Assembly: GCA_963971425.1 (NCBI GenBank)
Contig: OZ020515.1
Location: 20,890,637 to 20,954,636, forward strand
Source: Bryoerythrophyllum caledonicum
Taxonomy: Eukaryota > Streptophyta > Bryopsida > Pottiales > Pottiaceae
Direction of reading: 5' to 3'
Length of the DNA stretch: 64,000 bases
Made by a program: the position numbers and the translations under genes. The first letter of the stretch is position 1. Every line of letters starts with the position of its first letter. Positions 19,279 through 63,781 of the stretch are shown here, piece by piece. Below the pieces are notes generated by a model. The model ran no database searches and was not told the DNA's origin. It worked only from the letters and a program-made list of their open reading frames with translations.

Positions 19279-19315
19279 CCCCCTTACCCTAACAACCCCC
19301 TCCCCTCTCCCCTCC

Positions 19316-19663
19316 AAACCCTAGCCCCGTCCCTCACCCTAACAAGAACCAACCACGGCCCGTCACATTGCACTCCCGAAAAAGACCACCACTCCACATC
19401 CCCCGCGCTCTCAACACGCCCCTAACCCCAACGCCCTCGCTCATCACCACAGAATTTGACCCCACCCGCGCTCCAAACCTAAAAAGAAGCACCCCGCTCC
19501 TCTACGCCCCCAAACCCTAACACCCAGAACTCACTCACCCGTTCCAAATTCCCCGCATTCCCACAAAAGCTCGTCGCCCGGAGCTCCCCCGCAACTCCAA
19601 ACCGGACGATCACCGTGAGCCCGCAGCGACGGCGAGGACGATTGGGGTTTGGTGAAACCCTAG
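19316..19663. promoter_or_regulatory. Three telo-boxes in the 5' region of the PHD-like gene
   Basis: AAACCCTAG at 19316-19324, AAACCCTAA at 19512-19520 and AAACCCTAG at 19655-19663. They are spaced within 350 bp upstream of the start codon in a GC-rich, probably transcribed leader and promoter. These boxes are typical of plant genes active in dividing cells. No TATA box is evident. Confidence 0.45.
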
Positions 19664-21035: not shown

Positions 21036-22896
21036 TTAACGCCTTAGGGGACTCTTGAAGGTTTTGGCAGGTTCCTATGGTGTCAATTTATAACATTCCT
21101 TTTTTAGATTTCTACTCTAGATGGAAATTGCTAAAAGCTTTGTGTGAGTCCAATTTTTTTCCTAAATCCGACATTTTATGAAAAAGTTACATGGTTTTGA
21201 AGTTCAAATTGGGAGACCGGGCATGTCGGACGACTCCAAAAACTTTTGCTAGGACACTCTATTATTTGTGAGATTTTCAACACTAGCAAATAATACTATA
21301 TCCTTTCATACTCCCAAAAAAAATCTCTTGTCTTAACCCCTAAAGACCACGACCTATTTCGCTCTAAAACCAGTCCAAAACTGCCACTATCAAAAAGAGA
21401 CATGAAAATCACATTTTAAAGTGAATTTTTGATTTTCAACCGTAAGATCTTAAAATAGACTTCCATATAAACACGCCATCAAATTTTGGTTGCAATCCAC
21501 CGCACGGATTGATAGATTTTAGTGTTTAAAGTCAAAACAAAAGTTCATTTTCATCCATGCGTTGAGTAGATCAGCTGACTTTGACTTCATTTTGTATCAA
21601 ATTTTTGCATTGTACAAGGTCTAAATCTTTTACCATTGTCTTAAGCATGATGTTATTTCCCAACCCACCAATTTTTAGAGGTAAAAAAGGGGTGTAGCAT
21701 ATTCAAAACAAGTGTGCAAGGTGTGGAGGTTCAAAAATTGCCATTTCACGTTTTATATTTTTGTGAACTACGTATGTATTCAAATGATAATCCAAACGGT
21801 CAATAAGAAGGTTTTCACCATATATTGTTGTTGAAAAAAATAAAAGTGAAAAATATGAAGATCTCTAGGTTTTATGTAGAAAAGATGAAGTTTTTTTCCC
21901 CCGTTGCCCGACAATGAGCGAAAATGTTTGACTTGGAATAAAATGCATTTTTACACTTAAGACAAGATTTTTTTTCAAAATTTTCTAAATAAGGAAATAT
22001 TCTTTATATGTGTGAAAAATCTCAATGTCAATAGAAACTTTTGTCAAAATTTTTGGAGGTGCCCAAAGTCCCACTTTTGGCTTTAAGTGGTACTAACTTT
22101 CAAACCACAAATCCAAAAAAAAATTTAAAAAATATCTCCACGAAGCTCTTATCAGATCCTATCTTGAAAAAAAAATTCAGAGAAAAAGGATTTTTTTTCG
22201 AATTGTAGGTACATGCCCAAAATCCAAAATGACCCTAGGGGGAGGTTTGGTCCTTTAGGGGTTAACTGGAAAATAGCATAGTAATCTAAGTCAAACATTT
22301 TCACACATTGTCACACTTTGTCGGGCAAGGTACCAAAAAAACTTCTTTTCCACATAAAACTATGAGATCTTCATATTTCTTACATTTTATTTTTTCTACT
22401 ACAAGATGTGGTGTAAACCTTCTTATTGACCATTCGGATTATCATTCTAAAACATATTTAGTTCACAAAATATGAACACGTGAATTGGCAATTTTTGAAC
22501 CTCCACTCCTTGCACATTTGTTTTGAATACGCTACACCCCTTCTCTTCTTGTAAAAATTGGTGTGCTAGGAAATAACATCATGACTAACATGATGGTAAT
22601 GTTTTCAGACCTTGTGTGGTGCAAAAATTTGACACCAAGTGTAGTCAGAGTCTGTTGATTCACTCTAAGCAGGGAAGAAAAAGAACTAATTTCTTTACTT
22701 CAAACACTATAATCTTTCAATCCGTGCGGTCAAAGTTTAAGAAATTTTGCAAAGATAGTTATGAATAAGTCTTAATTTAGATCCTATGGTTAGATGTAGA
22801 AATAAAAGGTTTTGATTAACTCATTATCCATTGCACTAAAACGAGCAATATTGAAGTGTTTTTGGTGTGAAAATGCCTTGGGCCTTTAGGGGTTAA
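21036..22896 (-). mobile_element. TTAA element, 0.9-kb family, copy C, split by copy B
   Basis: It begins TTAA-CGCCTTAGGGGACTCTTGAA and ends CTTGGGCCTTTAGGGG-TTAA, inserted at the TTAA in the middle of the family 2 MITE. Its own sequence is 21036-21336 plus 22262-22896, about 0.93 kb, in opposite orientation to copy A. Its left end matches copy I at the window's right edge. Confidence 0.8.
21333..22265 (+). mobile_element. TTAA element, copy B, inserted inside copy C
   Basis: 933 bp with TTAACCCCTAAAGACC at the left end and GGTCCTTTAGGGGTTAA at the right, so it has terminal inverted repeats and duplicated TTAA. The middle matches copy A. The first 150 bp differ from A, so it is a related subfamily. 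In copies G and I the corresponding site of the host element is unoccupied. Confidence 0.85.
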
Positions 22897-23050
22897 AGTT
22901 TAGCAAGACTTACACCTTTGGATTGAAGAATCTTCAACTAACTTCTTTCATTTGGGAGTCATTTCAATATCTGAACCTTATCATGTTCAAATACAACACC
23001 ATACGTGTAGAATATGGTGGCCACCAGCGGCATCTTTTAAGGTTTAAGGG

Positions 23051-23595
23051 TTAACCCCTACAAGACCAAGACATTTTAGAGGAATTTCTATTGTATAGAT
23101 TAAAGATTGCCAAGAAGAACTTCTTCAGAATGTAACTGTAGGACCTTCTTTTGAACTTGTGTGAGAGGATGTGGCAAAACTTTTGTGGAATTTGACGGTA
23201 CGGATTGAAAGATAATTGCAGTCAGAGTTGGAAGGCTTGTACCCTATAGGTTCATTTGGTCATTTCTAAAAAAGAATTATTCATTTCTAAATTTTATATC
23301 TATTGAAAAAAGTTTTAAGGATTTTCGAAATTTTATTTATGAAAAATTTGGAAGCTATTATTGGATTTTATTTTTTTGCCATATCCAACCCTCGGGTATG
23401 GTGTGTGAAGATTAGCGCTTAACCCTAAATGACAAAAGTCTTGAGGTGGGCTTTTGCAAATCTTGGGTACGTTCCCATGGTTGCAGTTTATATCTATAAT
23501 TCTTGAAATTTTGTACAAAGATGGAAAGAGACAAGAGCTGCTTGGGAATATCATTTCTATTCTCACCGGATCAATAGAAAAAAAATTATGCCATC
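23051..23595. mobile_element. Adjoining TTAA element ends (D and family 3), boundaries unclear
   Basis: TTAACCCCTACAAGACC starts at the same TTAA that ends the family 2 MITE. A second start, TTAACCCTAAATGACAAAAG, lies at 23419 and is followed by GGGCTTTTGCAAATCTTGGG. A copy of this second start lies at 58996-59043. I cannot find the matching right ends. Confidence 0.45.
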
Positions 23596-24513
23596 TTAAC
23601 CCCTAAGAGCCCAAGTGTACGTGGGACGTACGTTTTGGATTTTGGGCAGGTTCCTACAATTAAATATTTTTTATTCTTTTCAAAACTCTTACACTAAATT
23701 TTCCTTGGTAAGAGCTCCATAGAGATATTTTTATTGTTTTTTTTGGATTCATGGTTTGAAAGTTAGTACCACTCAAAGTTAGAAATGGGGACTCTAGGCA
23801 TCTCCAAAATTTTGCTAGAAGTTTCTATCAACATTGAGATTTTCCAGACATATAGAGAATATTTTTCTTCTTTGAAAATGTCAAAAAAAAATTCTTGTCT
23901 TTAGTGTAAATAAACATTTAAACACATTTTTACACATTTCAGGCAAGCGGGGAAAAAATGTTCATCTTTTCTACATAAATCCTAAAGATCTTCATATTTT
24001 TCACTTTTTATTTTTTCTACATCAATATGTGGTGTAAACCTTCTTATTGACCTTTTAGATTATCATTCTAAAATATTAAATTCTCAAAAAAATAAATCGT
24101 GAATTGGCAATTTTTGAACCTCCACTCCTTGCACACTTGTTTTGAATATGCTACACCCCTTTTCTACGTCTAAAAATTGTTGAATACAGAACTAACATCA
24201 TGCTCAACACAATGGTAAAAGATTTAGACCTTGTATAGAGCAAAATTTGATACCAAGTGAAGTCAAAGTCTATTGATCCACTCAACGCCAGGAAGAAAAT
24301 GAACCATTTTTTTGACTTCAAACACTCTAATCTTTCAATCCGTGTGGTCAAAGTGTATGAAATTTTGTGAGTATGTTACTGAGCAAGTCTTAATGGAGAT
24401 CCTACAGTCAAGAGGATAAATATAAGGTTTTGTTTCCTTTCTTACTCATTGCACTAGAATCAACAATTTGAAGTGTTTTTGGTGTGAAATCGTCACGGGC
24501 TTTTAGGGTTTAA
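23596..24513 (-). mobile_element. TTAA element, 0.9-kb family, copy F
   Basis: 918 bp. Left end TTAACCCCTAAGAGCCCAAG, right end GGGCTTTTAGGGTTTAA. It is nearly collinear with copy A in reverse orientation over its whole length, including GGCAGGTTCCTACAATT, GAGCTCCATAGAGATATT and TTTGACTTCACTTGG on the other strand. Confidence 0.8.
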
Positions 24514-24519
24514 AGAAGG

Positions 24520-25262
24520 ACTTCTTGTGTGTAGACACGTCGGGCAACTCCAAAAACTTTTTCTAGGACACTCTATACAATGTGAGATTTTTAATACTAG
24601 CAAGTAATATTATTTCCTTTCCAAGTGTCAAAAAATAATTTTTGTTTGTAGTGAAAAATAGCATTTAACTCAAGTCAAACATTCTCACACATTGTCACAC
24701 ATTGTAGGGCAAGGTACCAAAAAGAATTCTTCTTTTTCATGTAAAACTTAGAGATCTGCATTTTTTTTCATTTCGAGAGCAATATGTGATGTATACCTTC
24801 TGACACACCGTTTGGATTCTAATTCTAGAACATATTAAGTTCCCAAAAAATAAAAACGTGAATTGGCAATTTATGAACCTCCACTCCTTGCACAATTGTT
24901 TTGAATATGCTACATCCCTTCTCTACCCTCTAAAAGATGAAGTACAATACAAGGAACTAACATCATGCTTAACATGATGGTAGAATCTAGACCTTGTATA
25001 GTGCAAAGATTTGACATCAAGTGAAGTCAAAGTCCGCCAGTCCACTCAGTGCAAGGATGAAAATGAATCATTTCTCCTACTTCAAACACTTTAATCTTTC
25101 AATCCGTGTAGTCAAAGTTTACAAAATGTTTTTGAGTATGTTACTTTGAAAGTCTTCATTGATATTCTACGATTAAAAAATAAAATAAACGCTTTTGTTC
25201 CCTTTCTTACTCATCGCACTAGAATCAAAAGCTTTGAAGTGTTGTTGATGTGAAATTGCCAA
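24520..25262 (-). mobile_element. TTAA element, 0.9-kb family, copy G, truncated
   Basis: Picks up in the middle of the C-type sequence (GGGCAACTCCAAAAACTTTT) and runs to TTTGAAGTGTTGTTGATGTG and the following GCC. The first about 190 bp and a clear right terminus are missing. It preserves the unoccupied version of the site where copy B entered copy C. Confidence 0.7.
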
Positions 25263-25289
25263 AGAAATCTCGGGGTAAAAGCCTAATGT

Positions 25290-25540
25290 TTATTTTGGGT
25301 CGTTTGGGCACGTCAACCTTTGTAGCAAGCACTACAGATCACCTCCGTGGAAAAGTTGGAGAAAATTTTGAGGTGAAGCAAGATGAGCATCTACCACGAC
25401 TGGCGTCACCAATATTGATGCAAGCATTGGCGAGCTACAGTGATTTCCACAAAGTGAGGTTGCAATGAAATATACCTTCTGTGTAAATGTTGTTCTGAAT
25501 GATCTATCACAGTTGTAAATTCTTCCGAGCCATGTGAGCT
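25290..25540 (+). mobile_element. Fragment related to family 4 MITE
   Basis: Shares TTTGTAGCAAGC(A/G)CTACA, ACCTCCGTGGAAAA-like text, GGCGAGCTACAGTGATTTCC and AATGATCTATCACAG-like text with the element at 58023-58327. It lacks clear ends. Confidence 0.55.
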
Positions 25541-28500
25541 CATCAATCTTGAACCTTTGAGAATGGGCAAGGAGGTTTGTAGAGTCCAAGGGGAATCCTA
25601 TTTTATTCTTCAACGTGTCACACTCAAAAAGAATCAATGGACACTCTGTTTCAATGAAGATGAATATTGCCATTCTTTACCTTGGGAGGTGAGGAATGCT
25701 CATTTTCGATAGTCAAAAGAATAGATTGTCTTTTTTTTTCCATGTGAAAAACCACCTTGAATACATTTTTGAATGTACTACGAATGGCACACGAGGATTG
25801 TGACAATCCCTAATGTATAGCATGAGGCCTCATTGTGAGGGCTCCATGGGCTTTGAGGAGCTCAAGGGCAAGGCCTACCAAAAGAGAGTCTCTCAAAACC
25901 TGAAAGGCCCACAAGACATGGCTCACACAACATCATATATTGGCTTGCATTGCACTAAACCTGTTCAAAAACTAGTTTGTAACGCACAACATATAGACAT
26001 TTATTCCATCCTTCTAGAGGTATAAAAAAAAAGTAGTTGTCAAAGTATGCGGCATCGGGTGCCACACCACATCGGATTGATATTTTAATATATTATTTTA
26101 CATTTTAGTAGTCTATTTCTTGTTTGTCGATGTTTCATCCATTTTAGCAATTTCATCTAGGATATGATTCAACTGCATAGGATTTTAGTGTATAATGGAG
26201 AAACCTCCCTTGACTTGACATTCTTGTCAAGTCATGTTTTGTGAGAGTTTTGCAGAGCTTGTATTGTTAGTTTTTTTGCTTGGAGATGGTGATTCAACCA
26301 TGTAGTAAAGATTGATGCTTTCCATATTCCCTTGCACTCTTTCATTCTTCCATGGTGGAGTAAGAGACGCTTGACTAATAGTGGACTTGTTTATTTATCT
26401 CAAGGGAATACTGTGTGTGTACTTTTGTGTATGTGATGTTGTCCTGATGGTGGTTAAACCATCATTAGGACAACAACATCACACATGCAAAAGTGCACAC
26501 ATAGTATACGCATTAACTTTATTGTACTCAATATGTTCCATGTGACAATCTATTTTTATACGACATATTATTATATACTGATGACAACATTATACAATAC
26601 AACCAATATAGAATATCTACACTTATGAGCAAATTGATGCCCATGATCCGATTATTAAAAGCCACAATAGGGCTTCTCCTCCTAAATTGGGTTGGCTTTG
26701 CAATCCTATATACCTCCCCATGCTCTCATTGACATCATACACTTTACTTTTATCTTGATGTATTCTTTGTTCACCTCTTGGTCCAAGGCTACTCTCTTGT
26801 TATATCTTTCTCTCTTGGATTTTAATTCTAGTATCGTAATGTCTCTTCTCTTATATTTTGTACATGCACTCCTCTTTGTAATTTGAATAGTTTTTCTTGC
26901 TTAATTTAGGTACTAATGTTGCGATTCGTGTGTACAATTTTTTGTTTCACTTACAATGATGCTATTAGGGTTTTGAAAGTCTTTCTTGTACACTTATATT
27001 AACTTTGTACTGTTCTATCCAAATTTATTTTTATCTTAGATGATGGATGAGGTATCATCAAGCTCTACAACAAGAGTATTTTGTCATTGTTTATCATGTT
27101 TTTAATTGGTTTTTTAGGAATTTGTTAGTTTACTTAACCTCGTCTTTAAGGTTGAAAAGGTGCCTTTAAGTATAGTTCATTCTTTATCTATTTGAGCTTG
27201 TTCCTTATATTTTTTATTTGTATAGAATGTCAAGTTTAGCCTCATGTTTTGTTTACTTCTCATTTGTTTAAGCATTATACTTGGTTTTAGCCTAGGCAAC
27301 TTGTTTTGTTTGTTAAGATAGTTTATCTGATTTTATGTCCAATGTATGGTTGTCACATATAGACTAGCTATTATTTGCTTATTTATAGTTCTTGCCTTAT
27401 ATATATTCTTGTTTATAATGTCAGACTTGCGTATTTGATACTAGTCTAGATTGGTTGGTTGTGTTTCTATAGAATACGACCCAATTTTTGTGAAATGTAA
27501 AACTTTATCAAATAGATATTTTTTTGTATGTCTTGTCTCATAGTCTTGCTTTATTTGACATACTTGTATCCCTTCTCGGAACCGGCGTTCTTCTCTCTCA
27601 CATACTTGTGTAAAGAATGAAGTTTTTTTTATTACAATTAATAGGTCCTTATTTGTTCTTTTTTTTGGAGATTATGCGTTTGTTTAGCTTATCTATAGCT
27701 TGTATATATATAAAAAGTGTTGTCTTGATCTATATTTTTTAACAGTTATTTTTATTTGTTCTAATTTGTGACTATCGTTGGACGTGGAAAATCCAATTGT
27801 CTATTTTTTAAAGATAGATTTGTGATGAATATCATGCTCTATTGTATATTTAGGCATGATTTGCTTGTTTTGGTGTATGTCTATTCTACATGAATATACT
27901 TATATCAATTCTAATGCTGATATATAGTATTCTAATTGATTTTCTCCATGGATTGATTTATTTAAGCCATAGCATGGAATACATCAAGAACACATTGCAT
28001 TTTAAAAACTGTGTAGGATCGACTGACTTCGAATTAAAATACTAGAAATACCGTCTCCATCGTGTTTGTTCAATCTTGGAATAATTCCTTGCAATAGTAA
28101 AGAAGGAAAGTTGCTAATCGTAGAAGGAAAAAAGCTGCCATGACAAGAAGGCCAAATGGAAATATTGTTTGCATGCAACTAAAGCCAATAAAAGTAAAAA
28201 GGATGTTATATTGATAATTGATGACAAATGGTGTTTTATTATTTTATACACTTAACATTGAGATTGTCTACATTGAGGCAATTAGACCATCGTCGTTCCG
28301 ACCGGGGAAGATTTTTTATTGGTGCTCCTCAGAATCCTCACTTCAAACGTAGCATGTCTATTGAAATCTTACTACAGTTTGTCCTAAACGTCACACAAAA
28401 TATCACCATACAGACTACCATTCATGTGCTATAATCCTGTATCTAATTCCTAAAACCAAATACAAACGCAATCAACAGATCTACAACCACACATGAACAT

Positions 28501-39037: not shown

Positions 39038-39763
39038 TGAACAATTGATATTGTAGAATTTCATAGCAATCTGTAAGTAGTTATTTTACAAAAACTTGAT
39101 GTTTATAACTCCAAAGAGGAGGTAATGTTGCAATGGCCATGATCCTTATGGATCAAATGCCGTGCATGGAATAGTTGCAAGAGTTGTTAACGAAAAGCGT
39201 TATCAACCACAAGATGTTCACCAATTAAAGCCACAGTAGCTCACATGATTCATCTAGGTCGTGAATTCATTTGAAATAAATTTCTTAGAAAATGGTAGTC
39301 CTCGAGTTAACTATCATAGAATTCTACCATCTTTTTAATGTAGTTGTTTTTCTTATTGATCATTTTAATGGTTCATTATATTATATATAGTAATGTTTTC
39401 TTTATTTATACGTGCATTGTATATAATTGATCACAACAGATGGAGCTTTGTTTGAAAGATACAACCTTCTTTGATGGCAACAAACAAAAGATTGGATTGC
39501 CATACATGAGCAAGAAAATTATATAAAGCAAAATTTGGATAAGCTAAGACGGTTGAAGTGATTTTTCATCGAGCGGATGTGGGTGTAAATACCAATGATG
39601 TTTGGAACAATGATATTAATATTCCCTTGTAAAGAATCACATATCACAAGAAGAACTTCGGTCCTCACTTAAGCGGGCCGAAGTGAATAAAGTGTATGTT
39701 TATTCCACCACTAAAGTTTAAACCAATGTCCACCAAATATAGATTTTTGTCAAAGATCAAAAT
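39038..39763. other. Intergenic DNA; possible 3' body of the 5S-headed element
   Basis: On the minus strand, just downstream of the 5S-like head, a GGTGGAATAAACATACACTT-type block (about 39680-39715) also occurs at about 59515-59545. This hints at a shared retroposon body. Otherwise AT-rich without a gene. Confidence 0.4.
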
Positions 39764-39882
39764 GGATGCATCACCAGAACTTTCCGGAAGGTCACCCATC
39801 TCAGTACTATTGTGGCCCAAAGGCGCTTAACTTCAGAGTTCTGATGGAATCTGGTGTAGTAGCCTTGGTGTGACCGCATCAC
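39764..39882 (-). rRNA. 5S rRNA-like sequence (pseudogene or 5S-derived SINE head)
   Basis: The 119-bp minus-strand sequence aligns end to end with plant 5S rRNA from GATGCGGTCA to GGTGATGCATCC. It keeps CCATCAGAACT, the box A core GAAGTTAAGCG, TAGTACT and the box C core GATGGGTGACC. By eye roughly four-fifths of bases match, with most changes in the stem I, loop B and 3' half stems. It is a single copy here, not an array, so it is more likely a pseudogene or the promoter head of a retroposon than a working gene. Confidence 0.8.
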
Positions 39883-42825: not shown

Positions 42826-45084
42826 TCACTACACCAAGCTCTACGGCTTCTTGCCCTTTGACAACAAGAACATCTCAAGTCTCTATCGCAACATTATTAT
42901 AAGGATGTGACATAATGTGCAACTTGCTTCTAAATTTTTATGATTTTTGTTGGTTTGGTCTGTTTTGAAATGATGCTCCCAAGCCAATTATCTGCCGAGG
43001 AGCCTAACTTCAATATGAGCATGTTGAAGCGGATCCATTGCAACGCATCACCATCGCCGAGACATATTGCTAACCCTTCTTCCAAATCAAGCTACATCGC
43101 GCTCCCCCCACCAAGACTGTGTATCAAGTGAAGAAGATATTTACATGATCTCTCTACATGTGTCTTTTCTCTTTTGGATGATTTCTAATGGATGGACGTG
43201 GGTGTGTAGATTGACAAGGATATCATTGTGAGAGTGGAGAAGATGGCAATGGCATGTGAATTAATTCCTTGAGCTTGTTGTCTTGCTCTGTTGGATGCAA
43301 TCTGTCATATTTTTTCTAACTTAATAGAATGTGCGTAATTAGAGCGATGAATGTTTCAAATGTTAATATTTCCAGTGGTCAGGCAAGCTCATGCTCAATA
43401 TACCTCTAAAAAGGTAATGAATGCGTAGTTGAATATTAATGTGGACGGTAAACATAGTATCGGATCTCATTATTTGTATTAATGACACGTTTCTATTTTA
43501 GATCTTCTATTTTTATGAATACCTATGGGAAGAAATTATTTAGACCTTAACGTACCTGTCAATTAGTGAAATATTAATGCTATTCACACTTGGCTATGTT
43601 CCGCTAATTATGATAACTTAATAGTATATATGGTGTAATATGTGCTCATGTAATAAAGTTGATCATGCAACTAATCTTTTTTTCAAAGCCAAAGAACGAG
43701 GAAGTTCTTGAGGTGACTTCTCATCCAAATATTAAACAATTACTTGTCCTTTGTATATCATAATCTATTACAAGTTATCATGTCTTGATGTTTTGTTAAA
43801 AATATGGTATTCCAATGTTGATTAGATTTGATTTTGAGACAACTTTAAAGTTGAACCTTTTGCATCAACTCCCCGCCCGAAACCGCCACTTTTCCATTGC
43901 TTAGCCACAACCGTGCGGATTTGTTTAATTTTGATTTCGTCATCGTCCATGCAAATTTGCTTTACATAGATCCACATCAATTATGTGCAAAAAATACGGA
44001 ACAACCAATATTATTTATGCATTACATGATTTGATGTAGATTGAATATTAAGGTGGACCACTATAATTTGGGTTTACAGAAATTAGTGTGGGTATTTTGA
44101 AATAATCAATTCCACACTATGACAGGTGAACGGTGTAATATAGCCTAGAATTTGACAAATGTGTTCATACTTTTTAAACATATGGTGACACGTAAAAATG
44201 TTGGAATGACCATGTTTTTTTTTCATTTTTTTGGCACACTAGTTGCTATATTGGCAACTTGCAACAAGTGTTTCCATCAAGCAAAGAGAAGATTTCATAG
44301 CCAAAAATTGAACCCACAATCAGTCCATTCAACTTGGGTATCTTTCCACCACCACCTTGTAGTTTAACCCTTAAAGGTCAGTGGAGGTCTTTGTATACGG
44401 TCACATATTTTACTCTTAACATACAAAAAATATTTTTTAATTTAGCAAGACAAACGTTTTTGGATTCAAGATTCTTCAACTAACATCTTTTATTTGGAGG
44501 TCATTTCAATATGTGAACCTTATCATGCTCAAATACGACACCATACATGTAGAATACATGACCATTTTGCAACTTCTCAAGCATGTAGTAGGAGCAATAA
44601 TGATCTAAATTAGAATTGCCATGTGCCATTGGATTGAGCTCAACACAAATATAAACTCTTGTAACTATTGTATACATCAATTCCTATACCTTGTGTGTCA
44701 AATACACCAAAAACATCATGTTGCAACCCAAATGTGGCTTCTAAGACCTTTTAGGATTAAAATCATCTTGAATACAATCTAAATCAGGATTTTAAGTTTA
44801 AGGCCATCTTGGACAAGGGATGACTATGTTGTAAAGGTGCAATCACCTCGTTCTTTAACAACGCCTAGGGCCAATTGACCCCCTAGTTCTCCCTTGTGGG
44901 ATGAACGGGGAAGTTTTCTTGTGGATGAAAAGGCTTGGGAAGCTGGCCAAGCGGTGAAGCCCCAGCCAGTATCCACAACATTGTCCACCCCACCTCGGCC
45001 CAGCCTATGCCCCCGCACACCCTAGCCCCGACTTGTGCAAATCATTCCTGCCTTCTATTGCCGTGTCTCCTCACTCCTTTGTTA
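42826..45084. other. Intergenic DNA, no gene seen apart from a MITE
   Basis: AT-rich, short frames only; a family 2 MITE fragment lies at 44364. Confidence 0.5.
44364..44580 (+). mobile_element. Family 2 MITE, right end lost or diverged
   Basis: Begins TTAACCCTTAAAGGTCAGTG, continues TATACGGTCACATATTTTACTC and TTTAGCAAGAC, then ATGTAGAATA. It retains an unoccupied TTTTTTAATTTAGCAAG at the place where copy C entered the MITE at 21036. The right TTAA end is not clear. Confidence 0.65.
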
Positions 45085-45094
45085 TGAAAAGAAA

Positions 45095-45651
45095 GATTGA
45101 AAACTACAACAGATCAAGAGTCCTAACCAATATCAAATAAACAAAAAAACATACACTAAAACAAGTATATGTAGTACACCCTCAAGGAATAACTAGTAAA
45201 TCACAAAAGTAATCAAATGTCTCGCACTCCACAAAGGGAGAATCAACTAGCGCAAGTAGTGTATGAAAATGCGGAGCCTTCACTAATGATAAACAATCAC
45301 TTACAAGTAAAGGTAATTACTAAACATTCTCTAACTCACTCACAAAGCTTGATTTGACAAAAACATCAAGTTGAGGACGTATGTGGCGCTATACACACAC
45401 ACACAATCCTAAGTGGATGGAAATCATCCACAGATGAATGCAGTGCGCCGCCGTACGTCCCTAAATCCGTCGAGTAGTAACAAACTAATCTACGCTAAAA
45501 CACTACGATGTGGATAGGCCCTCGACACCAAGTTCCGTGACAGCTGTTGTGTAAAGAAAGATCAATAACCACACTAGATCAAGAGTCCTAACCAACATCA
45601 AATAAAAAAAACCATACAATAAAACAAGTATATGTAGTACATCCTCAAATG
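45095..45651. repeat. Direct repeats of about 90 bp flanking the left LTR
   Basis: A block containing AAGAAAGAT, AGATCAAGAGTCCTAACCAA and AACAAGTATATGTAGTACA occurs at about 45088-45188 and again at about 45560-45648, immediately either side of the left LTR. A C10 run follows at 45651. Confidence 0.75.
45191..45542 (-). repeat. Left (3') LTR of the gypsy element
   Basis: About 352 bp matching 52257-52614 at roughly four-fifths identity by eye. Read on the minus strand it starts TGTCACGGAACTTGGTG. An AC microsatellite and the palindromic word GGATGATTTCCATCC are shared. Confidence 0.8.
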
Positions 45652-46019
45652 CCCCCCCCCTTAGTGGATAAAGTGACCTTCTATTTAGCTAGAATCAAAC
45701 AAGACTAACATGACTAAACACACGGTGATGTCGCTGCAACAACTGTACGCATCTAGTCGAAGATGTCGCGAGTTGCGGAATCCAAAAGTGTGTACAAAAG
45801 TAACAAAGAGAGGATAGGTCGGGTGCAATGTGAGCCCCATCTTTAATTGCCCTATACAACTTTGTTGCCAATTCCTTTGTCAATCTTCACCTACCCTATC
45901 ACTGAATAAAAAGCAAGAACATCTAACTCGATGGTAATGCACCACATAGTGACAATTCAACAAGGAATTCAAGCTGTATTATCAAGTCAAATGTGGCTCG
46001 AAGACCTCCAACAATGAAG

Positions 46020-46300
46020 GCAAAGTTCAATCCCCAGATAGTAGAGTAGAAAGAGGCAATGTCAAACAAACCATATGCCAACCACAATGACAATGGTCAC
46101 AAAGCAACATGGTAGTTGCGCCCTTCTTCCCACCACATACGAAATACAGAAGGTCGTTTCGCACAACGGCCAACTCCAAATGAATGGAGCCATCAATGGG
46201 TAATGGCATGGAGCACAATTCTTAGAGTGCTCTCGACACTCCCAGCCATCTTTGCCTTCCAGCAACAAGATGCCACTGGGTAACACATCACACAAAGAAT
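46020..46300 (-). other. PHD-finger-like region at the 3' end of the gypsy fossil
   Basis: One frame shows MLLCDHCHCGWHMVCLT after a CGG-containing stretch, the Cys4-His-Cys core spacing of a PHD finger (CD.C..GWH..CL). PHD fingers read histone tails. In a retroelement such a module after integrase could steer insertion, as chromodomains do in other gypsy clades; that role is inference. Confidence 0.65.
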
Positions 46301-46616
46301 AGTACGCCCTACCGTGACGTCCAACGTCCAGGGCGCCTCACGTTGCAAATAAATAAGATTTTCCGTGGAAAAATGACGCAACTGAGGTTGGTAGGCACCG
46401 CTACGAGTACGGACGTACTGTAAGGTGTCACGGTGCTGAGCAATGGACAAGTTTTCTATGGCCATAGGCATGGCCCGCTGAAGAACTCCGCTTGATCCCG
46501 TAGACATTGGGCCCACACCTTCGGATTGTCCAAATCCACAACCGGAGCCAATTTTTCCCGAACGGAACTCCGTAAAATTGGCTCCCGCCCGTACAACAAC
46601 TGATACGGGGGTAGAA

Positions 46617-47425
46617 GTCTACTAAGGTTACTAACTTTTGGGCAAAAAACATATAATTCAAAGTATATTTGTTTTGGAGCCCTTTGTTAAATTGTTGATA
46701 AATGCCAACCGTCCATTGATTAGGTGTGAAGAAATCATAGCCAATAAAATGTTAGATGAACAGATAATATCTTGAAGAAGGTGGTGATTTTTTGGACTTT
46801 GTGTTGTCATAATACATGTCGTTCTATAGGTGGCCCAACCCTTTCCCAAGATGAGTATATTGCATACTGCAGAGACTGAAAATATACCAAATATACTATG
46901 CAATATATATGTTAAATCAAGGCACCAAAAACTAGGTTTTGAAAAAAATGGTCGAAGATTTTTTTTTTGGAAAACATTTTATGCATCAAGATAGATTTTT
47001 GTATACTAAAAAAGGTTGGATAAGAATTTGGAGAAAAAACAACATTAATTTTTAATTTAGGCTTCTTAAAAAAATAGCTTATTTTTTAGCAATAAAAGCC
47101 AAATCAAGTTTTGGATCTAGAATTTTCAATTATAATGTAGGAGCACATTATGGTATTTTACTTCCTGAAACTCTCAAAAAAGAATATTTGTTTGATTTGA
47201 CATACCTGTGACATGTATGTAGTAATGAAAGGTATACTTCTATTGGCCAAACCATGAGCCAAAACTCTAATTTCTTAGGACTCTCATATTGCTATTGAAG
47301 TAAGCAATTACACTCCATTAGAAGAATTCCAAAATCAAACCTACATTGGCACTAGGTAGCAAATGAAGGCTCGTGACTTGTCCCTATACCATTTATGACA
47401 GGTTTTTCATACTAGCTTAGTCGAC
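46617..47425. mobile_element. AT-rich insertion inside the gypsy integrase region
   Basis: About 0.8 kb of AT-rich DNA, unlike the GC-balanced retroelement around it, separates two integrase blocks. Its edges are imperfect inverted repeats: GTCTACTAAGGTTACTA at the left and, read inward from the right, GTCGACTAAGCTAGTA. It probably is a non-autonomous DNA transposon that entered after the gypsy element had landed. Superfamily not determined. Confidence 0.6.
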
Positions 47426-50279
47426 CGAGACATATGGATTAAAAGCAGCCAGTGAAGCCTCCCGGCTAAACCGGTATCCCATGGTGATCCATGGTATCAT
47501 CATATCCCAATCACGGTGGCCATCCAGAAGTAATTCATACTTCCGTAGGCCCCGCTTCACAGTCTGAACCACACGCTCCGCCAAACCATTAGCTTCCAGG
47601 TGATCCCGAGAAGTGGTACGATGGTCAATCAAAGCTCTAATATACAAAGCTTTCAAAGCCCCAAGGAACTTACGCCCTGATCTGTCAAAACCTCAGTTGG
47701 GGCTCCAAAACAAGCCAACACCCGGTCGAGAAATGCCATGGCTGCCAACTCTAAAGAGTTGTGCAGAAGAGCCACGAGCTTAATTCACTTGATGAAATGC
47801 TCCACCATCACCAAGACATACTTTGCTCCGCATGGAGTCACAACAAGTGGACTAGCAAAGTCCAAAGACCACCGGTATCCAAGCCCCATAATGGGCAAAG
47901 GTTGCAACGTGGTGACAAGGTATTGAAGCTAAATCTAACTCGATCACATACTTCACACCGAGAAACATATGTGGCGACCTACTATAACATGCCGGTCCAC
48001 CACTATTAGCTGTGGAACATTGAATGAGTTCGTCGCACACCAAAATGTCTTAGGTCTTCGTGTACTTGACGTACCAACGAAGCCTTCAGATGTACTTAGG
48101 AACTATGCGCCTAGTCCCATCTGGTCACACCCAAAATAGAAGCTCGTTCTCCCGACGGAACTTTGCTATTTGGTGTCCAACTCCATCACGCTCCATAGCA
48201 GAAAGAGTTGGGGGAAGTGTCCCATGTTGTAGCTTGTGCAAGACTGGAACGTCTTCCCACACATCGCTAACAACTTGGGCTCTATTCGGTACCTCATTTG
48301 TTGCCAAATCAGACAATGTGAATGCGGAGCCAGACATCAACGTGACGTAAGCCGCTGCATGCCACCCCGGGACTAACTCCTTGTCACAGTCCCCATGCCT
48401 CCTGCTACAAGTCAGATCCTCCTCCAAAGGGCTTGGATTACGAGATAGACAATTCGCATCGAGGTTCGTGATGCCGGCTCAATGTACAACTTCAAAGTCA
48501 TAATCCTGAAGCAACAAAGCCTACCTAGCAAGCTTGCCAGTAAGCTTGTCAGACTCCATGAGCCACTTCAAAGGTTGATGGTTGGTCACCAACGTAAAAC
48601 CTTGCCCATACAAATAGGGCCTAAAATGGCCTATGGCCCAAACTACGGCCAAAGCCTCCCCCTCATAGGACAAATAGTTGAACTCCGCGTTGTTGTTGCT
48701 CCTAGAAGCAAACGCCACAACGTACTCAGGTCCCTTATCATCCTTCTGAGTCAACACAACCGCCAATTCCACAACACTCTAATCTGTGTGCAACTAATTT
48801 AAGGGTCGTGTAGCATCCGGACGCCGTAGCACAGGCGCACAACTGAGCTTCAGCTTCAAAGTAGCAAACCCCTGCGGCTGCTCCCGTCCCCAAGTCCATG
48901 ATTGATCCTTTCCCGTGATAATAGTCAACGGCTTAGCAATTAAGCTAAAGTTCTTGACAAACTAGCGATAGTAATTCGCCAAGCTAAGAAAAGCTCGAAG
49001 CCTTGACACGTCGGTTGGGGCATGAATCTTCTGCAACGCATCCACCTTGGCCTCCTATACACCAAGGCCCCCCTGGAACAATCGTATGTCTCAAATACAA
49101 CAACCGATTGTGGAAGAACTTGCACTTGCCATAGTGCAAGCGCAATCCCCACTGCTGTAATCTCTTGAACACCGCCTAAAAATGCCTTACATGCTCCTGT
49201 AGGCTGCTCCTAAAAATGATAACATTATCAATATAGCATCGAGCAATTGTTAAACCGGCCAACACTCAATCCATGACCCTCTGAAACTCAGCCGGTGCGT
49301 TCTTGAGGCCAAATGGGAGAAACTTCCAATGATAGAGTTGATCTCTCTTATCCTGATCAATGGTAACTGGTGGTAACCAGACCGCAAATCTAGAGTACTA
49401 AATACTCTAGTGTGGCCCACCACATCTAACAACTCCTCCGACGTGGGCATGGGATACCAGTCTAAATTGGTCTTGCATTTAACTGGTCTAAAATCCCCAC
49501 ACATTTGCTTCTTCGTCTAGTTGCCAAAGATGTCCTTCTTCGATGGCATAACCGTGGCACAAGTGTACTCGCCATTGGAAAGCTCAATCAAGCCGGCGGC
49601 CACCAACTCTTGACAACAAGTCTAGACCCCAACTTCCTTTGAAAGGCTGAGCTTGTAAGGTCATCGGAAGATTGGGTGGTTGTTCTCCAACTGAATGTGA
49701 ATGGGCTTGCCTCTATATCCCTCCAAATATCGAGACTAAAAGCAAAACAACTACCATACAAACGTATAAACACTTGTATCCTCCGTGCCTCGGCATCGGT
49801 AAAATGTGGCCCTAAATTTAAAGGCCAATCATCAAATTCTGTGGTCTTGTTTTCCACCGTAGAAGACTCACGGCGTGATTGCTACTTGGTAGCAGAGGCG
49901 GCATTCATGCCCGAAGACTCCTCACTCACAGGATCTAGAGAAAATCTCATGTCGTGATGATAAAATTGGAAAATGATATCCCGGGCATCCTCTCGGCCAA
50001 AGTTCTCCGCCAAGGCTGCAAAGACACACTGAGCACATAGCTCCTCAACAACATGCGTCTTCAAACAAAAAAACAATTCCGCTTCCTCGATCGCTATGAG
50101 ATGTGTCACCACGACCCCCTGACCATTAGAGTCTGCCCCTAGCACGTGTGGATGGTTACGCAAACCGCACTGAATGGCGAAATAAAGGCCAAAAATCTAA
50201 ACAAGAGTGTTGAGGTCAATGGCTTGATCCAACAAATAACAACGCTCGCCCTCAAAGAGATCCGGTGCGGCGGTGGTGC

Positions 50280-51225
50280 CTGTCAAAAAGTCATTGCCCT
50301 CTCCCTCTCATTGGCCAAAGGCTCTTTGTAGTTTTGGAAAACAGAATTCTGAACCATGCCCGGACCGTGTGTCCTATAGGCAAAAGACCCTGGGTAGCAC
50401 ATCAACGTGGAAAATGCCTCCCGAGTGAAACCAACGCATTTCACCACCTCCAATGGTGGCTCATCATCCTTGGTAACCTCCTTGGAAACACGGTGGTTGT
50501 CCAAGATGTCATCAATCTTACGGCGTACGGGCTGTTGCACCCAAGTAAGCAAGTACAAAGGTGAGCATTGCCGGTGATACCATGTTGGTCCAAATCCAAC
50601 GTAGCCGATGGACGTAAGAGCCCAACGCCGCGGCATTAACAAACATGGGGGGACCAAGAAGGTGATGGATGTATGTCCCATCCTCACGCACCTTCATCCG
50701 TGTATTCCCCAATGGGATACGTCTTAAAAAATGTATCTTGGTGGCGTCGATTGGTGGGTAATCCACCACTAGATGAGCCTGAGAAAATCCGCAAAGAGCC
50801 CTAACCGTGGATCATCCAAGCCACATCCACTGCTCGCTTGTTAATGGCCTTCGCAAGGCCATCCGGCAATCACCAAGTCCATGTGATCTAACCAATGCAC
50901 ATCATCCTCACTGATCAACGTCACATCACGTCGTAACTTGCCAAAACACCCCTGAATGGTAGAAGGTAGTAATTGCTCCGGATACAAAGGCTGAAGACGT
51001 TGAATGTGATGGTGAGTGGCACGGTTGGCTGCAAAGCTAACATCCACGTGGATATATTGCCGTACTTTAAGGCCGGCCTGTAATATAGTGGCAAACCCCG
51101 TACCGATACCAGCAAATAGCTTTACGAGGGTGATACCCTCATCCGGTGGTCGCCACTGAATAGTGCAAGCCAACAATAGAGTGGAAGAGTCTAGTGAGAG
51201 ATGAGGAGCATTGAGGGCATCCACA
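50280..51225 (-). other. Cytosine-5 DNA methyltransferase domain of the gypsy fossil
   Basis: Motif I is seen as VKLFAGIGTGF, motif II as HVDVSFAANRATHHHI, motif IV with the catalytic Pro-Cys as DLVIAGWPCEGH, and a later AALGSYVHRLRWIWTN block resembling motif VIII of DNMT3-like enzymes. A region like EPLANERERAMTF resembles motif IX. The order and spacing are those of a C5 methyltransferase. It lies between the right LTR and reverse transcriptase in the same orientation, so it belongs to the element and is not a neighbour gene. It shares the element's broken state. Confidence 0.82.
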
Positions 51226-52256
51226 ATCTCTCGGCTACGACGAGTGAACTTTAACTAAGTCCCCCATGGATCCTTGCAATGACGTGCAGGAATCTCCATT
51301 GATCTATGCTCACGTGATTTCGCCACCTCCGACATTAAAGCATATGTCTCCTTCAAAAGTGTAGAATCACATGACAAATCGGATGCCAAGGCACTAGACA
51401 CAAACATAGCATCTGTTGTGGATTTATATTTGTCAAACGTGCCGATATGCCAATTTAACAAATATATGACAAATACATGACAAATGTGCCAATATGCCAA
51501 TTTAACATAAGAATTGGGCGAGGGGCGGAATGCCTTAACTATAGATGCAAATTTTACTCAAAGCCGTGCAAAAATGCCTTCACAAACGATTATGTGATCG
51601 TTTGTCCTTATAGTTAACACCTTGGACTGGTCCCAATGGAGCCCTCCAATTGGCTGTCCCTTGCCTTCAATCGTAGCGTCCCACTTGAGTGCGCACGTCA
51701 CCGACCACTGCCACGTCCGCGGCTCCTAGCTCTATGCCCGCCAAGTCCTAGTCAACCCTGCTGGTTAACTCAAGCTCGGGCCCACAAGTGACACTCTTCT
51801 GATTCTTGCAGATAAAACCAGATGTTCTCTTGCTGACTAGATGCCCAATGGTGGGCTGACTCCCATATTGGTGGTCTTGCGAATTGGCAACTACCCCCAA
51901 CTCCGTGCAGTCTTCTACAAAATCTTGCTAAGTACCGACTGCATCCGTGTCACACTCAAGCCAAGTCTCACTCGCGGTTCCCCGGCTTTTCCTAACTCAA
52001 TGAGCTCTCTCCAACTTACGCCTTTAGAGTAGTGAGCTCATGCAGTCTTTGGCTCTAAACAGAATCACCTTTACTCTAGCAGCTTCTCTTCACAACATAA
52101 GCTTGTACAACCAAGTTCTCTATCACACAACATTAATAGCACACAATGTGAATTTTTTGCAACCCACTCTTTCTCTACTCTTCCAATTTTCTTCAAACTT
52201 TCCAAATGCAAAAATAGTGGAAAAATAAGGGAGAAATGAGAGGGTCTTTGTCAAGT

Positions 52257-52614
52257 GAATAACTAGTAAATCACAAGAGTAGTCAATCGTCTTACACTCC
52301 ACAAAAGAAGAGTCAATGAGTGTAAGTAGTATAAGAGAATGCGGAGTCTTTACTAATAACAAACAATCACTTAAAACCAAAGGTAATCACTAAACACTCT
52401 CTTACTCACTTACAAAGTTTGACTTAACAAAAACTTCAAGTCAAGTACGTGTGCAGCGCTATGCGCACACACACACAACCCTACGTGGATGGAAATCATC
52501 CACGGATGAATGCATTGCGCCACCATACGTCTTTAAACCTGTAGATTAGTAACAAACTAATCTATGCTAAAACACTAGAATGTAGAGAGGCCCTCGATGC
52601 CACGTCCCGTGACA
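52257..52614 (-). repeat. Right (5') LTR of the gypsy element
   Basis: About 358 bp; read on the minus strand it starts TGTCACGGGACGTGGC and ends TAGTTATTCA, giving a TG...CA LTR. I could not recognise a primer binding site in the next bases, and no target duplication is evident at the outer edges. Confidence 0.8.
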
Positions 52615-55837: not shown

Positions 55838-57361
55838 TTAAGGTGCAAACATGGACTTGTATTGAGGTAGAGGTTGCTGATACGACGGCTGGTAGGAAGG
55901 CTGATAAGAAGAAGCCAGGTAAGATGGCTGATAGGAAGAAGTCTGGTGAGAGGTCTGATGAGAAGTCTGGTTAGAGGTCTGGTGAGAAGGCTGAAAAGAA
56001 GAAAAGTTTTTCCTGCTTGCATACGACGGTGCCGGGAGTCCATGAGGTACTCGCTTCTTGAACCTGGGGGAAATCTCTGTAGGCGTCCCAGGAGCACTGC
56101 CGCGAGGAGTTCCGGGAGAATCAATCGGAGGACTGCCGAAGGCGGGCAAGCTTCGCTCAACCCGCTCCGGTCTCTTGTCGATTGCCGATATGTCCCTCTC
56201 CAAGTAAGTACAATAGCTCTCGAACATGCTCACCGAGACGGATAGCTTAAAGTCCAGGCGAAACAAGAATTCGAGCTCCAGACGGTTCAACTCAACCACA
56301 CTAACACCTCCAACCCTTGCGAAGAAAGCGTTGTTGAAGTGCCTGCAGGCCAGAAATTTATCAGCACTGTAAGCCATATTCAAACTATCAACATCAGCAA
56401 GAGCGAAACAAGAAAGATTTCCAGCTTAAATACCACACTGAAAAAACTTAATATTTCTAGAAAAAGAATTTCATATCGCACCAAAATCCAATTTCGGCTT
56501 CAGAGAGTTCATATGAGTCCCAGAAACTTAACAAATCTACTTTAAATCACTAAGCATGTACGACATTTCAAACAATGTAGGTAGAATTCTGCACTAAGAC
56601 AACTACAACAGTCTACCATTACTAGAAACATAGAACGCACTCTCTCTAACCGTAACTCCACATCCAGTACTCACTCACAAACTCGAGATTCCGGGAAAGG
56701 GTCAAGACTGGATTAGAAATGAGCTAATGCACGAAAACAACACAATCAACTCCCTGGATAAAAAAAACAGGTGCGAGAGTTGCTGTCCAGCTGAAACTTA
56801 CACATCGTCAAGCGTCTTCGTGGCCACCATGACGCTCGTCACCAGCAGCCTGTGCACGTTGAGAGATGTGACGAGCAAATCCGGTTGCCGGTGGATGAGG
56901 CGGTCAAGAAACACGTATCCAACGACGAAGCACGACGGACTGCAGCTGGTGTACTTGAAGATGCGCTCCAGGTACTTGGCAATGCTGATGCTCGGCGCCC
57001 TGAGGCCATGAAAGATCGTCAGCTTCTTCCCCTGCTGCGACGGCGCATTCGCGAATTGCTCGTTCCGCGCCACGAGCCGGTCCAGCACAGCCGCCAGCAC
57101 GCTCAGCACCTTCGGCACCTCCCGCCCCGACGCCGACGCATTGGAGTCGGACTCGTCAATATCCGGCGCCTCGAAGGTAAGCGCCGACGACGACGACGAC
57201 GCCACCGCGACCTTCCTCGTCAGCTGCATCCCGGAGCCAAACACATCATCCTCCTCCTCCGCCTTGGCGTGGCTCCCGAATGACCCCGGCGTCCTGCACG
57301 AAGGCGGCATCCTTCTCGCTCGCTCCCCGTCAAAACCGCTCTCATCTCCCCGTGCCTCCAT
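55838..57361 (-). CDS. P-type (U-type, PHO80-like) cyclin
   Basis: Two exons, 56802-57361 and 55838-56342, joined in phase through a GT-AG intron (donor GATGT|GTAAGT, acceptor CCTGCAG); 354 residues. The start is the ATG at 57361. The cyclin box starts near residue 90 with VLSVLAAVLDRLVARNEQ, then FHGLRAPSISIAKYLERIFK, SCFVVGYVFLDRLIHRQPDL, NVHRLLVTSVMVATKTLDDV, and across the junction HFNNAFFARVGGVSVVELNR and LELEFLFRLDFKLSVS. This is the plant CYCU/CYCP pattern, in which LDD..YNN.Y.A.VGG is diagnostic. Plant members partner with CDKA-type kinases and are linked to phosphate or nutrient signalling and division. The acidic, low-complexity first 85 residues and a Ser/Thr-Pro rich tail ending in SYQPSYQ and SHQTS repeats make it longer than the usual 200-220 residues. 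Confidence 0.9.
55870..55995 (-). repeat. Coding tandem repeats in the cyclin C-terminus
   Basis: 12-15 bp units encode (SHQTS/NQTS)n followed by (SYQPSYL/SYQPSYQ)n. All units keep the frame. The tail ends with LPQYKSMFAP. Confidence 0.85.
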
Positions 57362-58022
57362 CAAATTCCACAAATTCCCCCGCCATAGCGCCACCAAGCT
57401 AGCTACATCCTCCCCCTCAACAACTCCAGAAACAAACTCGAAGCAGATCCTGAAGAAAGGAGTGAAAGACGTGGTCGACCCTAATCCAATACAAAAGGAG
57501 CGAGGCGAGGCGGGCGCGGCGAAGATCGCAGGCCACTAGTCGAGGCTCCGCAGCGCGCTCTTTGCAGCACCAACCTCGCGGATAATGAGGTTGTCGCCGG
57601 AAAGAGTTATGAGCGCGTGACGCTGCTTTTCACTTGCTCCAGTTGCGGTAACTTTGTCCGCCGTGACTTCGAAAGCTGACATGGCAATCATCGGTGCCAA
57701 GAGCCGAAAGGTGAAAAGAGCGCTGCCACTAAAGTAAAGCCTGCATCATTTCAAGGTCAACTTAAATCTCATGCTTAGGACTCACTAATTGTTTCAATAT
57801 GAGCTTTTTGGGCCTGTGAGGATCTACGAGTTATGTAGATCATGCAGATTGATATCTACACAGCGGATACATTTCAGCACAGAGATCTACAAACTCTTTT
57901 TGGGAAAATCACTGTAGCTTGGCGATGCTTGCACTGATTGTTGTGGTGATGGTCTCAATAGAAAATCTACAAGCGTTCTAGATCATACCATATGTGTACA
58001 ATACAAACCACCAATAGCAGCT
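57362..58022 (-). promoter_or_regulatory. 5' UTR and promoter region of the cyclin gene
   Basis: A GC-rich stretch to about 57660 then a drop to AT-rich DNA. No clear TATA box or telo-box. The transcription start cannot be placed. Confidence 0.35.
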
Positions 58023-58995: not shown

Positions 58996-59475
58996 TTAAC
59001 CTATAAATGAAAAAAGTCTCAAGATGGGCTTTTGCAAATCTTGGGAATTAAAACGTGAATTGGCACTATTTTGAATTTCCACTCCTTGCACAATTTTTTT
59101 GAATATGCTACACCCCTTCTCTACCTCTTAAAAATGGTGTACAAGGAGTTAATATCATGATCAACGTGATGATATAAAATTTAGAACTTGTGTAGTGCAA
59201 AACTTTGACGCCAAGTGAAGTCAAAGTTTGTTGATCCACTCAACGTAGGGATGAAAATAAACCATTTTTTCTACTTCAAACACCATAATCTTTCAATCTT
59301 TGTAGTCAAATTTGATGAAACTTTGTGAGTATGTTATTTATTGAATGTTAAATGAGATCCTTTGGTTAAAAGAACAACTTTGATTTTTTGTATCTTTCCT
59401 TACTCATTGCACTAGAATTCAAAGTTTTGAAGTGTTTTTGGTGTGCAGTTGTCAAGGAAATTTAGGGCTTAAAGG
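58996..59475 (-). mobile_element. Family 3 start followed by truncated 0.9-kb TTAA element, copy H
   Basis: TTAACCTATAAATGAAAAAAG with GGGCTTTTGCAAATCTTGGG (58996-59043) runs straight into the middle of the 0.9-kb family (AAACGTGAATTGGCA). That continues to GTGTTTTTGGTGTGCAGTTG and GGGCTTAAAGG at about 59475, in the same orientation as copies C and F. Confidence 0.65.
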
Positions 59476-63039: not shown

Positions 63040-63781
63040 CAAGTTTATTTCATTAACATTGACCAAATTTTGAAGTGTTCAAAGTTCTACACTTGTTTGA
63101 AGGACATTAAAGGGTTCATTTGCTTCCCTGCATTTAGTGGATCAACAGACTTTGACTTCACTTGGTGTCCAATTTTTGCACTATTCAAGGTCTAAATTCA
63201 TTACTATCATGTTATGAATGATATTAGTTCCTTGTACACCAATTTTTAGAGGTAAAGAAAGGGTGTAGCATATTCAAAAAAATTGTTCAAGGAGTGGAGG
63301 TTCAAAAATTGTCAAACTGTATTATAATTGTTTGTAAACTTAATATGTTTTAGAATGAGAATCCGAATGGTCGGTAAGCAGGTTTACACCACATAATGGC
63401 GTGGAGAAGATAAAAAGTAAAAATATGAAGATCTATGTGTTTTATGTGGAAAGGAAGCTATTTTAATCTAAAGACAAGAGTTTGTTTTTTTGAAAATATG
63501 AAAGGAGATAATATTATTTTCTTAAAATTTCACATTTGATAGAGTGTCCTAGCAAAAGTTTTTGGAATGGCCCAACATGCTCGCTATCCCCATTTGAACT
63601 TCAAAACCGTATAACTTTTTCATTAAATGCAGGATTCAAAAAAAAAATTGGATTCACATAAAACTTTTGGTAATTTCCATCTATGATTTTTTTTTAAAAG
63701 AATGTTGTAACTTGACACAATAGGAACTTGCCCAAACCTTCAAGAGTCCCTTGAGGGGACTCTTGATAATTTAGAGGTTAA
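63040..63781 (+). mobile_element. TTAA element, 0.9-kb family, copy I, left end lost
   Basis: Matches copy A from TTTTGAAGTGTT-like text through GACTTTGACTTCACTTGG, CAATTTTTAGAGGTAAAGAA and GGTTTACACCACAT. It ends with the C-type terminus CAAGAGTCCCTTGAGGGG, TTAGAGGTTAA at 63781. It retains the unoccupied version of the site where B entered C. Confidence 0.75.

Follow-up and report, generated by a model that had tools for sequence, protein, structure and literature searches.

In two algal lineages, according to PMC5890265, retrotransposons encode an enzyme that writes the mark by which they are themselves silenced. One of these, KnitGypsy-Dnmt3 from Klebsormidium nitens, combines Gypsy domains with repeats that are arranged as in DIRS elements. 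The other, SymbioDIRS-Dnmt3, is from Symbiodinium. Here we describe a similar element in a 64,000-nucleotide stretch of contig OZ020515.1 (the window, which is the whole stretch of DNA that we analyzed). The element lies at 45080..52614 on the minus strand, with its 5' end at 52614 and its 3' end at 45080. It is very probably a dead copy from a Ty3/Gypsy-type retrotransposon lineage of the same kind as KnitGypsy-Dnmt3, with a captured DNMT3-like C5-methyltransferase and with a PHD finger at the C-terminus of the integrase. The evidence for this reading is the domain order, a methyltransferase whose motifs are not rearranged, a relative built on the same plan, comparable decay in the methyltransferase and in pol, and repeats in the order A-coding-B-A-B.

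An earlier note on this DNA had pointed to reports of methyltransferases in algal long terminal repeat (LTR) elements, correctly (these are the two elements of PMC5890265), and had proposed another case or a relative of them. The domains, the DNMT3-like enzyme, and the repeat layout agree that this element is of the same kind as KnitGypsy-Dnmt3. The earlier note placed the element at 45191-52614, and we corrected the borders to 45080-52614 on the minus strand. As for its description as an LTR element, the repeat pair is present, and the plain LTR layout gives way to A-coding-B-A-B.

The likeness to KnitGypsy-Dnmt3 includes a Gypsy domain composition, an unrearranged DNMT3-like enzyme within a polyprotein, DIRS-like repeats (the layout there is taken from figure-legend text), and purifying selection on the enzyme. 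As KnitGypsy-Dnmt3 is described in that paper's text, its enzyme is in the Pol open reading frame (ORF), whereas here the enzyme precedes a UAG codon and so lies on the side of Gag. Also, the term "PHD" is absent from the main text of PMC5890265, figures and supplements aside. SymbioDIRS-Dnmt3, as described there, shares a DNMT3-type enzyme in a retrotransposon polyprotein and A-coding-B-A-B repeats, but it has a tyrosine recombinase instead of a DDE integrase.

Domains of the fossil and its relative

To find other members of the family, we scanned genome_contigs, a collection that covers 84,980 bacterial and archaeal species. Among 255 pattern-matching stretches, one locus was confirmed, on contig CADCWO010000201.1, and it has the methyltransferase at the same position and the PHD finger at the same end. 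This contig is titled as part of a Synechococcales metagenome-assembled genome (MAG), that is, it was binned as cyanobacterial. Because it carries a retrotransposon, we take it to derive from a eukaryote in that environmental sample. Its DNA is 85.0% identical to the window over 4052 columns and 80.1% identical over another 1445.

The relative is apparently intact, with the plan gag-protease-methyltransferase, UAG, reverse transcriptase (RT)-RNase H-integrase-PHD. Its ORF1 (1162 codons) is open at the contig start; a start codon is present at 8609, at the other contig end. ORF1 encodes a zinc knuckle (0.01, below the cut-off), a protease with a DSGA motif (Asp_protease_2, 4.9e-4, also below the cut-off), and the methyltransferase (PF00145, 9.5e-13). 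ORF2 (1047 codons), separated from it by a single in-frame stop, encodes RT (1.6e-31), RNase H (5.7e-39), the H2C2 zinc finger (4.2e-18), the integrase core (4.9e-14), and the PHD finger (1.9e-10). Among 386 genomes from the phylum of the MAG, the integrase-PHD piece was found in just one, on this same contig. The MAG has six contigs with Gypsy-type RNase H, including CADCWO010000201.1; the other five, which are partial (3.3-6.7 kb), had no methyltransferase match and no PHD finger. The public cyanobacterial bin seems to be contaminated with eukaryotic DNA.

In the fossil, profile searches for the C5-methyltransferase, PHD, RT, and integrase families all gave matches, although the integrase core was below its cut-off, and the layout was as the earlier note had described: the methyltransferase lies in the same orientation between the 5' LTR and RT, and the element's coding part ends with a PHD finger. 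This finger follows the integrase. The order RT-RNase H-integrase, with a DDE integrase, is that of Gypsy elements and of the KnitGypsy-Dnmt3 kind. The parts of the element given below are on the minus strand unless stated otherwise. The RT remnant (48923..49800) matches RVT_1 (4.7e-15) and is aligned by tblastn of the relative; its best match among solved structures is the RT of Ty3 (4ol8, 2.1e-11). The RVT_1 signal comes from the C-terminal half; the N-terminal half had no profile match, and the RT piece had no match among phages. The stop-free core of the RNase H remnant (48521..48778) matches PF17917 at 1.8e-25, and another search of the RNase H region gave 2.9e-27. The integrase remnant (47432..48086) includes H2C2 (PF17921, 1.9e-12), the core (rve, 9.1e-5, the match below cut-off), and part of the C-terminus, with 74-82% identity to the relative by tblastn. 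The integrase gene is split by an 829-bp stretch (46606..47434, strand not assigned) that is absent from the relative and, by this comparison, is a later insertion. Beyond it are the integrase tail (46222..46605; blastn, 80% to CADCWO010000201.1 5991-7420) and the PHD finger remnant (46027..46221), the last part of which is past a stop. The PHD remnant matches PF00628 at 4.8e-6, which exceeds the cut-off, and the PHD of UHRF1 at 1.3e-5.

The relative's PHD finger is complete and resembles those of CHD4, UHRF1, KDM5, and ATXR5, among others (98 sequences matched at E up to 0.01, of which the best 60 are considered here). Several of such PHD fingers read the unmodified H3 tail. Chromoviruses also have a chromatin-reading module at the integrase C-terminus, but theirs is a chromodomain; the pieces that we scanned from the fossil and the relative had no chromodomain match, and the PHD finger occupies that place. 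By analogy with the placement of the chromodomain in chromoviruses, a role for the PHD finger in target choice would be a natural guess. Among DNA transposons, Ginger1 has a Gypsy-type integrase, and in one listed family (Ginger1-9_HM) a PHD finger lies further C-terminal, but no methyltransferase is among the C-terminal domains listed in PMC2836005.

The methyltransferase remnant is at 50253..51131 (the low border is approximate). Searched as one frame, with X at stops, it matches Pfam PF00145 with 26.1 bits (cut-off 22; E = 7.3e-6), a PHROG methyltransferase (E = 1.3e-10), and NCBIfam dcm (E = 4e-6; its 26.7 bits are far under the family cut-off of 100.65). A shorter stop-free ORF had no Pfam match. 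The piece with motif VIII had no match when searched alone, and it is 80% identical to the relative over 51 residues. In the usual numbering, motifs I (near 51119), IV (near 50864), and VIII (near 50610) were located by pattern, and II, X, and a decayed VI were located by eye. This recovers the four motifs (I, II, IV, and VIII) that the earlier note had named.

The relative's intact enzyme is DNMT3-like and unrearranged, as judged from its matches to DNMT3A (8.7e-8, starting ahead of motif IV and reaching VIII) and DNMT3C (1.2e-7, I to VIII). Other classes matched less well: HaeIII at 1.6e-5, HhaI at 4.8e-5, and DRM2 at just 0.54, so DNMT3 and not DRM is the best match. The class signal of the fossil enzyme alone is weaker (DNMT3C, 0.0012; HaeIII, 0.0044). 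In both the fossil and the relative the motif order is I-IV-VIII, and the relative also shows the intervening VI; X was placed by eye and aligned at -2.7 bits. Because a DRM methyltransferase needs a rearranged motif order, the canonical order in both copies rules it out. The C5-methyltransferases of phages are less than 60% identical to it (328 records, E up to 1), and weak methyltransferase matches were found in 8 of 28 other genomes from the order of the MAG; these confirm the enzyme class only.

Upstream of the methyltransferase, what is left of the protease-methyltransferase interval (51132..51413) aligns to CADCWO010000201.1 1953-2240. The next segment (51414..52161) matches neither the gag nor the protease of the relative nor, past its first ~113 nt, the leader; no trace of the relative's gag and protease was found in the window. 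A 35-nt unit is present here in two direct copies that are 86% alike (51426-51507).

Repeats, a candidate primer site, and a palindrome

The 5' copy of repeat A (52257..52614) begins with TGTCACGG and ends with TTATTC, and the 3' copy (45187..45542) is 83% identical to it over 364 columns. The 5' A lacks the ~105 bp (repeat B) that precede the 3' A, and a second B is found outside the 3' A. The inner B (45545..45649) is the start of the 3' LTR. The outer B (45080..45186) follows A at the joint TTATTC|CTTGAGGG, and its ..AACA end is the element border. The two B copies are 87% identical over 106 columns.

A polypurine tract (45650..45662) lies directly before the 3' LTR, that is, before B, and a candidate primer-binding site (52244..52256) lies directly after the LTR end, that is, after A. 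Thus reverse transcription should give LTRs of the form B-A, and the A|B joint falls at the ends of the complementary DNA (cDNA) that are expected from the polypurine tract and the primer site. A stretch within A (52422..52434) can pair with the 13 nt that follow the LTR, which suggests self-priming, as a candidate case of the Tf1 type (in which the primer site is complementary to the 5' end of the RNA). With G-U pairs allowed, the fossil's complement has 13 pairs, which was reached by 0.2% of 2000 shuffles. The relative's complement has 13 Watson-Crick pairs (0 of 2000 shuffles), and its primer region, picked so that both arms are in it, has a folding z of -3.1, matched by 2 of 200 shuffles.

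The inner B/A joint contains the palindrome ACAGCTGT (45540..45547, strand not assigned), and the breakpoints of the layout coincide with it. In the relative's 477-bp B-A block, this is the only perfect palindrome of at least 8 bp, and it extends to 10 bp there. Integrase 3' processing leaves recessed CA ends and two-base overhangs. We tentatively propose that A-coding-B-A-B, cut at the palindrome, reflects a 2-LTR circle that was opened inside one LTR by integrase. The integrases of HIV-1 and a spumavirus are reported to cut palindromes in 2-LTR circles, giving linear DNA with processed ends (PMC1905944, PMC1180852). In those viruses the palindrome is the LTR-LTR joint, whereas here it is inside the LTR and we infer the cleavage.

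Alternatively, this could be an ordinary LTR element that was inserted by its LTR ends, and the layout could be due to a later rearrangement, with duplication of the LTR end and loss of the 5' B. The polypurine tract before B and the candidate primer site after A do imply normal B-A LTRs, and a duplication at the outer ends is unproven. Yet both breakpoints are on the same palindrome, KnitGypsy-Dnmt3 is reported to have repeats laid out as in DIRS (in the legend text of PMC5890265), and the A and B pairs are similarly diverged. Specifically, the A copies have 59 differences at 357 sites (Kimura two-parameter [K2P] distance of 0.192) and the B copies have 12 at 104 sites (K2P of 0.126), which is not a significant difference (p = 0.28), so both pairs may date from the insertion. 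Also, another copy in the window is likewise A-first. This is a second, older LTR from a related family (26038..26440 on the plus strand, end approximate), whose A starts at the same TGTC and is followed by B-like sequence. Its A matches at 65% over 354 columns, and no B was detected before it (p = 0.35-0.58). The continuation into B was equaled by 0-1.3% of 300 shuffles, with a score of 0 for the leader, but the anchor was picked by eye and an unanchored test for B after A was weak (p = 0.05-0.29). Overall, we consider a rearranged ordinary element to be less likely than not. An inverted repeat, seen by eye around 26410-26510, follows the older LTR.

At a rate of 7e-9 changes per site and year, the divergence of the A copies would mean an age of ~14 million years. 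Differences of the C-to-T type between the A copies show no clear excess at CG.

Proposed production and role of the methyltransferase

The methyltransferase and pol are separated by an in-frame TAG (49882..49884, minus strand). The sequence around it, AAG TAG CAA TCA, is identical in frame and position in the relative. CARYYA after UAG is the readthrough context of tobacco mosaic virus, and CAA UCA fits it. We think it somewhat likely that the UAG is leaky. Since the methyltransferase is upstream of it, on the Gag side, the enzyme was probably made at the level of Gag. We had also considered the openness of the frame from methyltransferase to RT (4 stops in 248 codons; 1.5% of Markov shuffles were as open), but we dropped this as evidence, as 7.8% of 1155 real segments of the window with similar GC were equally open.

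To see whether the parts of the fossil decayed together, we compared them to the relative. Stops were gained in 1 of 93 codons before the methyltransferase, 3 of 291 in the methyltransferase, 1 of 123 in the linker, 7 of 305 in RT, 4 of 149 in RNase H, 5 of 244 in the integrase, 0 of 112 in the integrase tail, and 1 of 53 in the PHD finger; the methyltransferase and pol decayed alike. Differences at the three codon positions were 0.143/0.113/0.220 in the methyltransferase (p = 6e-4), 0.134/0.055/0.163 in RT (p = 0.0035), and 0.081/0.061/0.183 in the integrase (p = 7e-6); for RNase H, the integrase tail, and the PHD finger, p was 0.0039, 0.03, and 0.037. The excess of differences at third positions indicates that the enzyme was under constraint before this copy died, apparently less so than the integrase.

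We propose the following cycle. Ribosomes would make mostly Gag-protease-methyltransferase, and leaky reading of the UAG would fuse a minority to RT-RNase H-integrase-PHD. The methyltransferase would be packaged with Gag and would methylate the new cDNA; we give this cDNA methylation an even chance. The cDNA would then be closed into a 2-LTR circle. Integrase would open the circle at ACA|GC|TGT within the LTR, cutting after ACA on both strands to leave recessed CA ends with two-base overhangs, and would join the TGT...ACA ends to the chromosome. The PHD finger would pick the chromatin by its histone tails. In other words, a streptophyte and possibly land-plant Gypsy lineage might have a DDE integrase that ignores the LTR ends; a DNMT3 carried with Gag would methylate the 2-LTR circle, and the circle would be reopened at a palindrome inside the LTR. 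In its split repeats and its circular form, the lineage would have converged on DIRS elements. This full scenario is speculative, and we put it forward as a possibility that falls short of even odds.

The methyltransferase might instead have a role other than marking cDNA: it could damp transposition to spare the host, or it could act on RNA. The text of PMC5890265 raises such roles as open options (RNA for the LINE type). The Gag-side placement suggests action inside particles, and we consider these other roles to be less likely than not.

Several observations weigh against our interpretation. In the text of PMC5890265, the enzyme of KnitGypsy-Dnmt3 showed no activity in yeast, a result that its authors called inconclusive. 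Structure predictions for our methyltransferase were of low confidence (predicted local distance difference test [pLDDT] scores of 31 and 34). Codon constraint was not significant in the stretch before the methyltransferase (p = 0.15), and the linker of ~120 codons from the methyltransferase to the UAG showed none (0.187/0.177/0.185, p = 1). The nine unchanged bases at the stop, in a stretch that is ~18% diverged, could be due to chance. The fossil's 13-nt complement needs G-U pairs; with Watson-Crick pairs only, it has 6, which is not significant. The outer ends have no clear target-site duplication (AAAA / AAGG). Just one relative is known, from one locus in the genome_contigs scan, and seven queries against IMG/VR (four fossil pieces and three of the relative's) gave no confirmed relative. 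Finally, the ends of CADCWO010000201.1 (1-127 and 9159-9285) overlap by 127 identical bases, a feature that the MAG's five further retroelement contigs lack, and the circular form may be due to an assembler's collapse of the repeat instead of a real circle.

The methyltransferase could also have been inserted on its own into an otherwise ordinary Gypsy element, or it could be a nested host gene, and the element body is indeed single-copy within the window. The earlier note had named a methyltransferase found only here, in unrelated flanks, as the sign of this. Instead, the relative on the other contig has the enzyme at the same place, in frame with gag-protease and with the same UAG and PHD finger, and the methyltransferase and pol of the fossil decay alike, so a separate insertion is very improbable, unless the relative's contig was assembled as a chimera. 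As far as two members show, it is supported that the methyltransferase and the PHD finger belong to the element family. Least probable of all is a DIRS-type element, whose tyrosine recombinase would explain the split direct repeats: a DDE integrase with an H2C2 zinc finger is present (complete in the relative), and no recombinase family was matched in the scanned pieces of either copy.

Surroundings and significance

Exons of two genes lie on opposite sides of the element: those of the exocyst subunit Exo84 (1382-2035; 1.8e-7, with 31.6 bits versus a cut-off of 32; another piece at 300-926 reached only 0.039) and of a cyclin (56801-57535; 3.3e-23). By their sequence, these genes look like those of a streptophyte. 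K. nitens itself is an improbable host, given that this DNA is AT-rich and that the K. nitens genome is compact. A GC-rich open frame of 1160 codons with internal repeats (15841-19320, minus strand) is probably a host gene; it has a weak PHD match (0.0023, below the cut-off). The only Rfam match at the gathering threshold in the window is 5S rRNA-like (39763-39881, minus strand, 85.6 bits). Related dispersed repeats in both orientations, ~74-86% alike, are at 11203-12137, 21499-25293, 59046-59474, and 63094-63756, and tandem-like repeats, 84-90% alike, are at 4027-4363.

In the literature that we found, figures and supplements of PMC5890265 aside, we saw no Gypsy element that has both a DNMT and a PHD finger. 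Nor is there a DNMT-bearing Gypsy element from a land plant in that literature, including the portions available of PMC12344493, PMC6453930, PMC2836005, and PMC9033089. The Gag-side enzyme, the palindrome-cut layout, and the self-priming complement go beyond the text of PMC5890265, although its figures or supplements might show a PHD finger or a stop codon.

This element is a second streptophyte case of an element-borne DNMT3, probably from a host that is not Klebsormidium, and it comes with an apparently intact relative. If the host is a land plant, then the element would contradict a published claim that such elements are missing from land plants. With the enzyme on the Gag side, the idea of cDNA methylation can be tested directly. 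And the ends bounded by the palindrome suggest an account, based on integrase, of a layout that is reported, and left unexplained, in the parts of PMC5890265 cited here.

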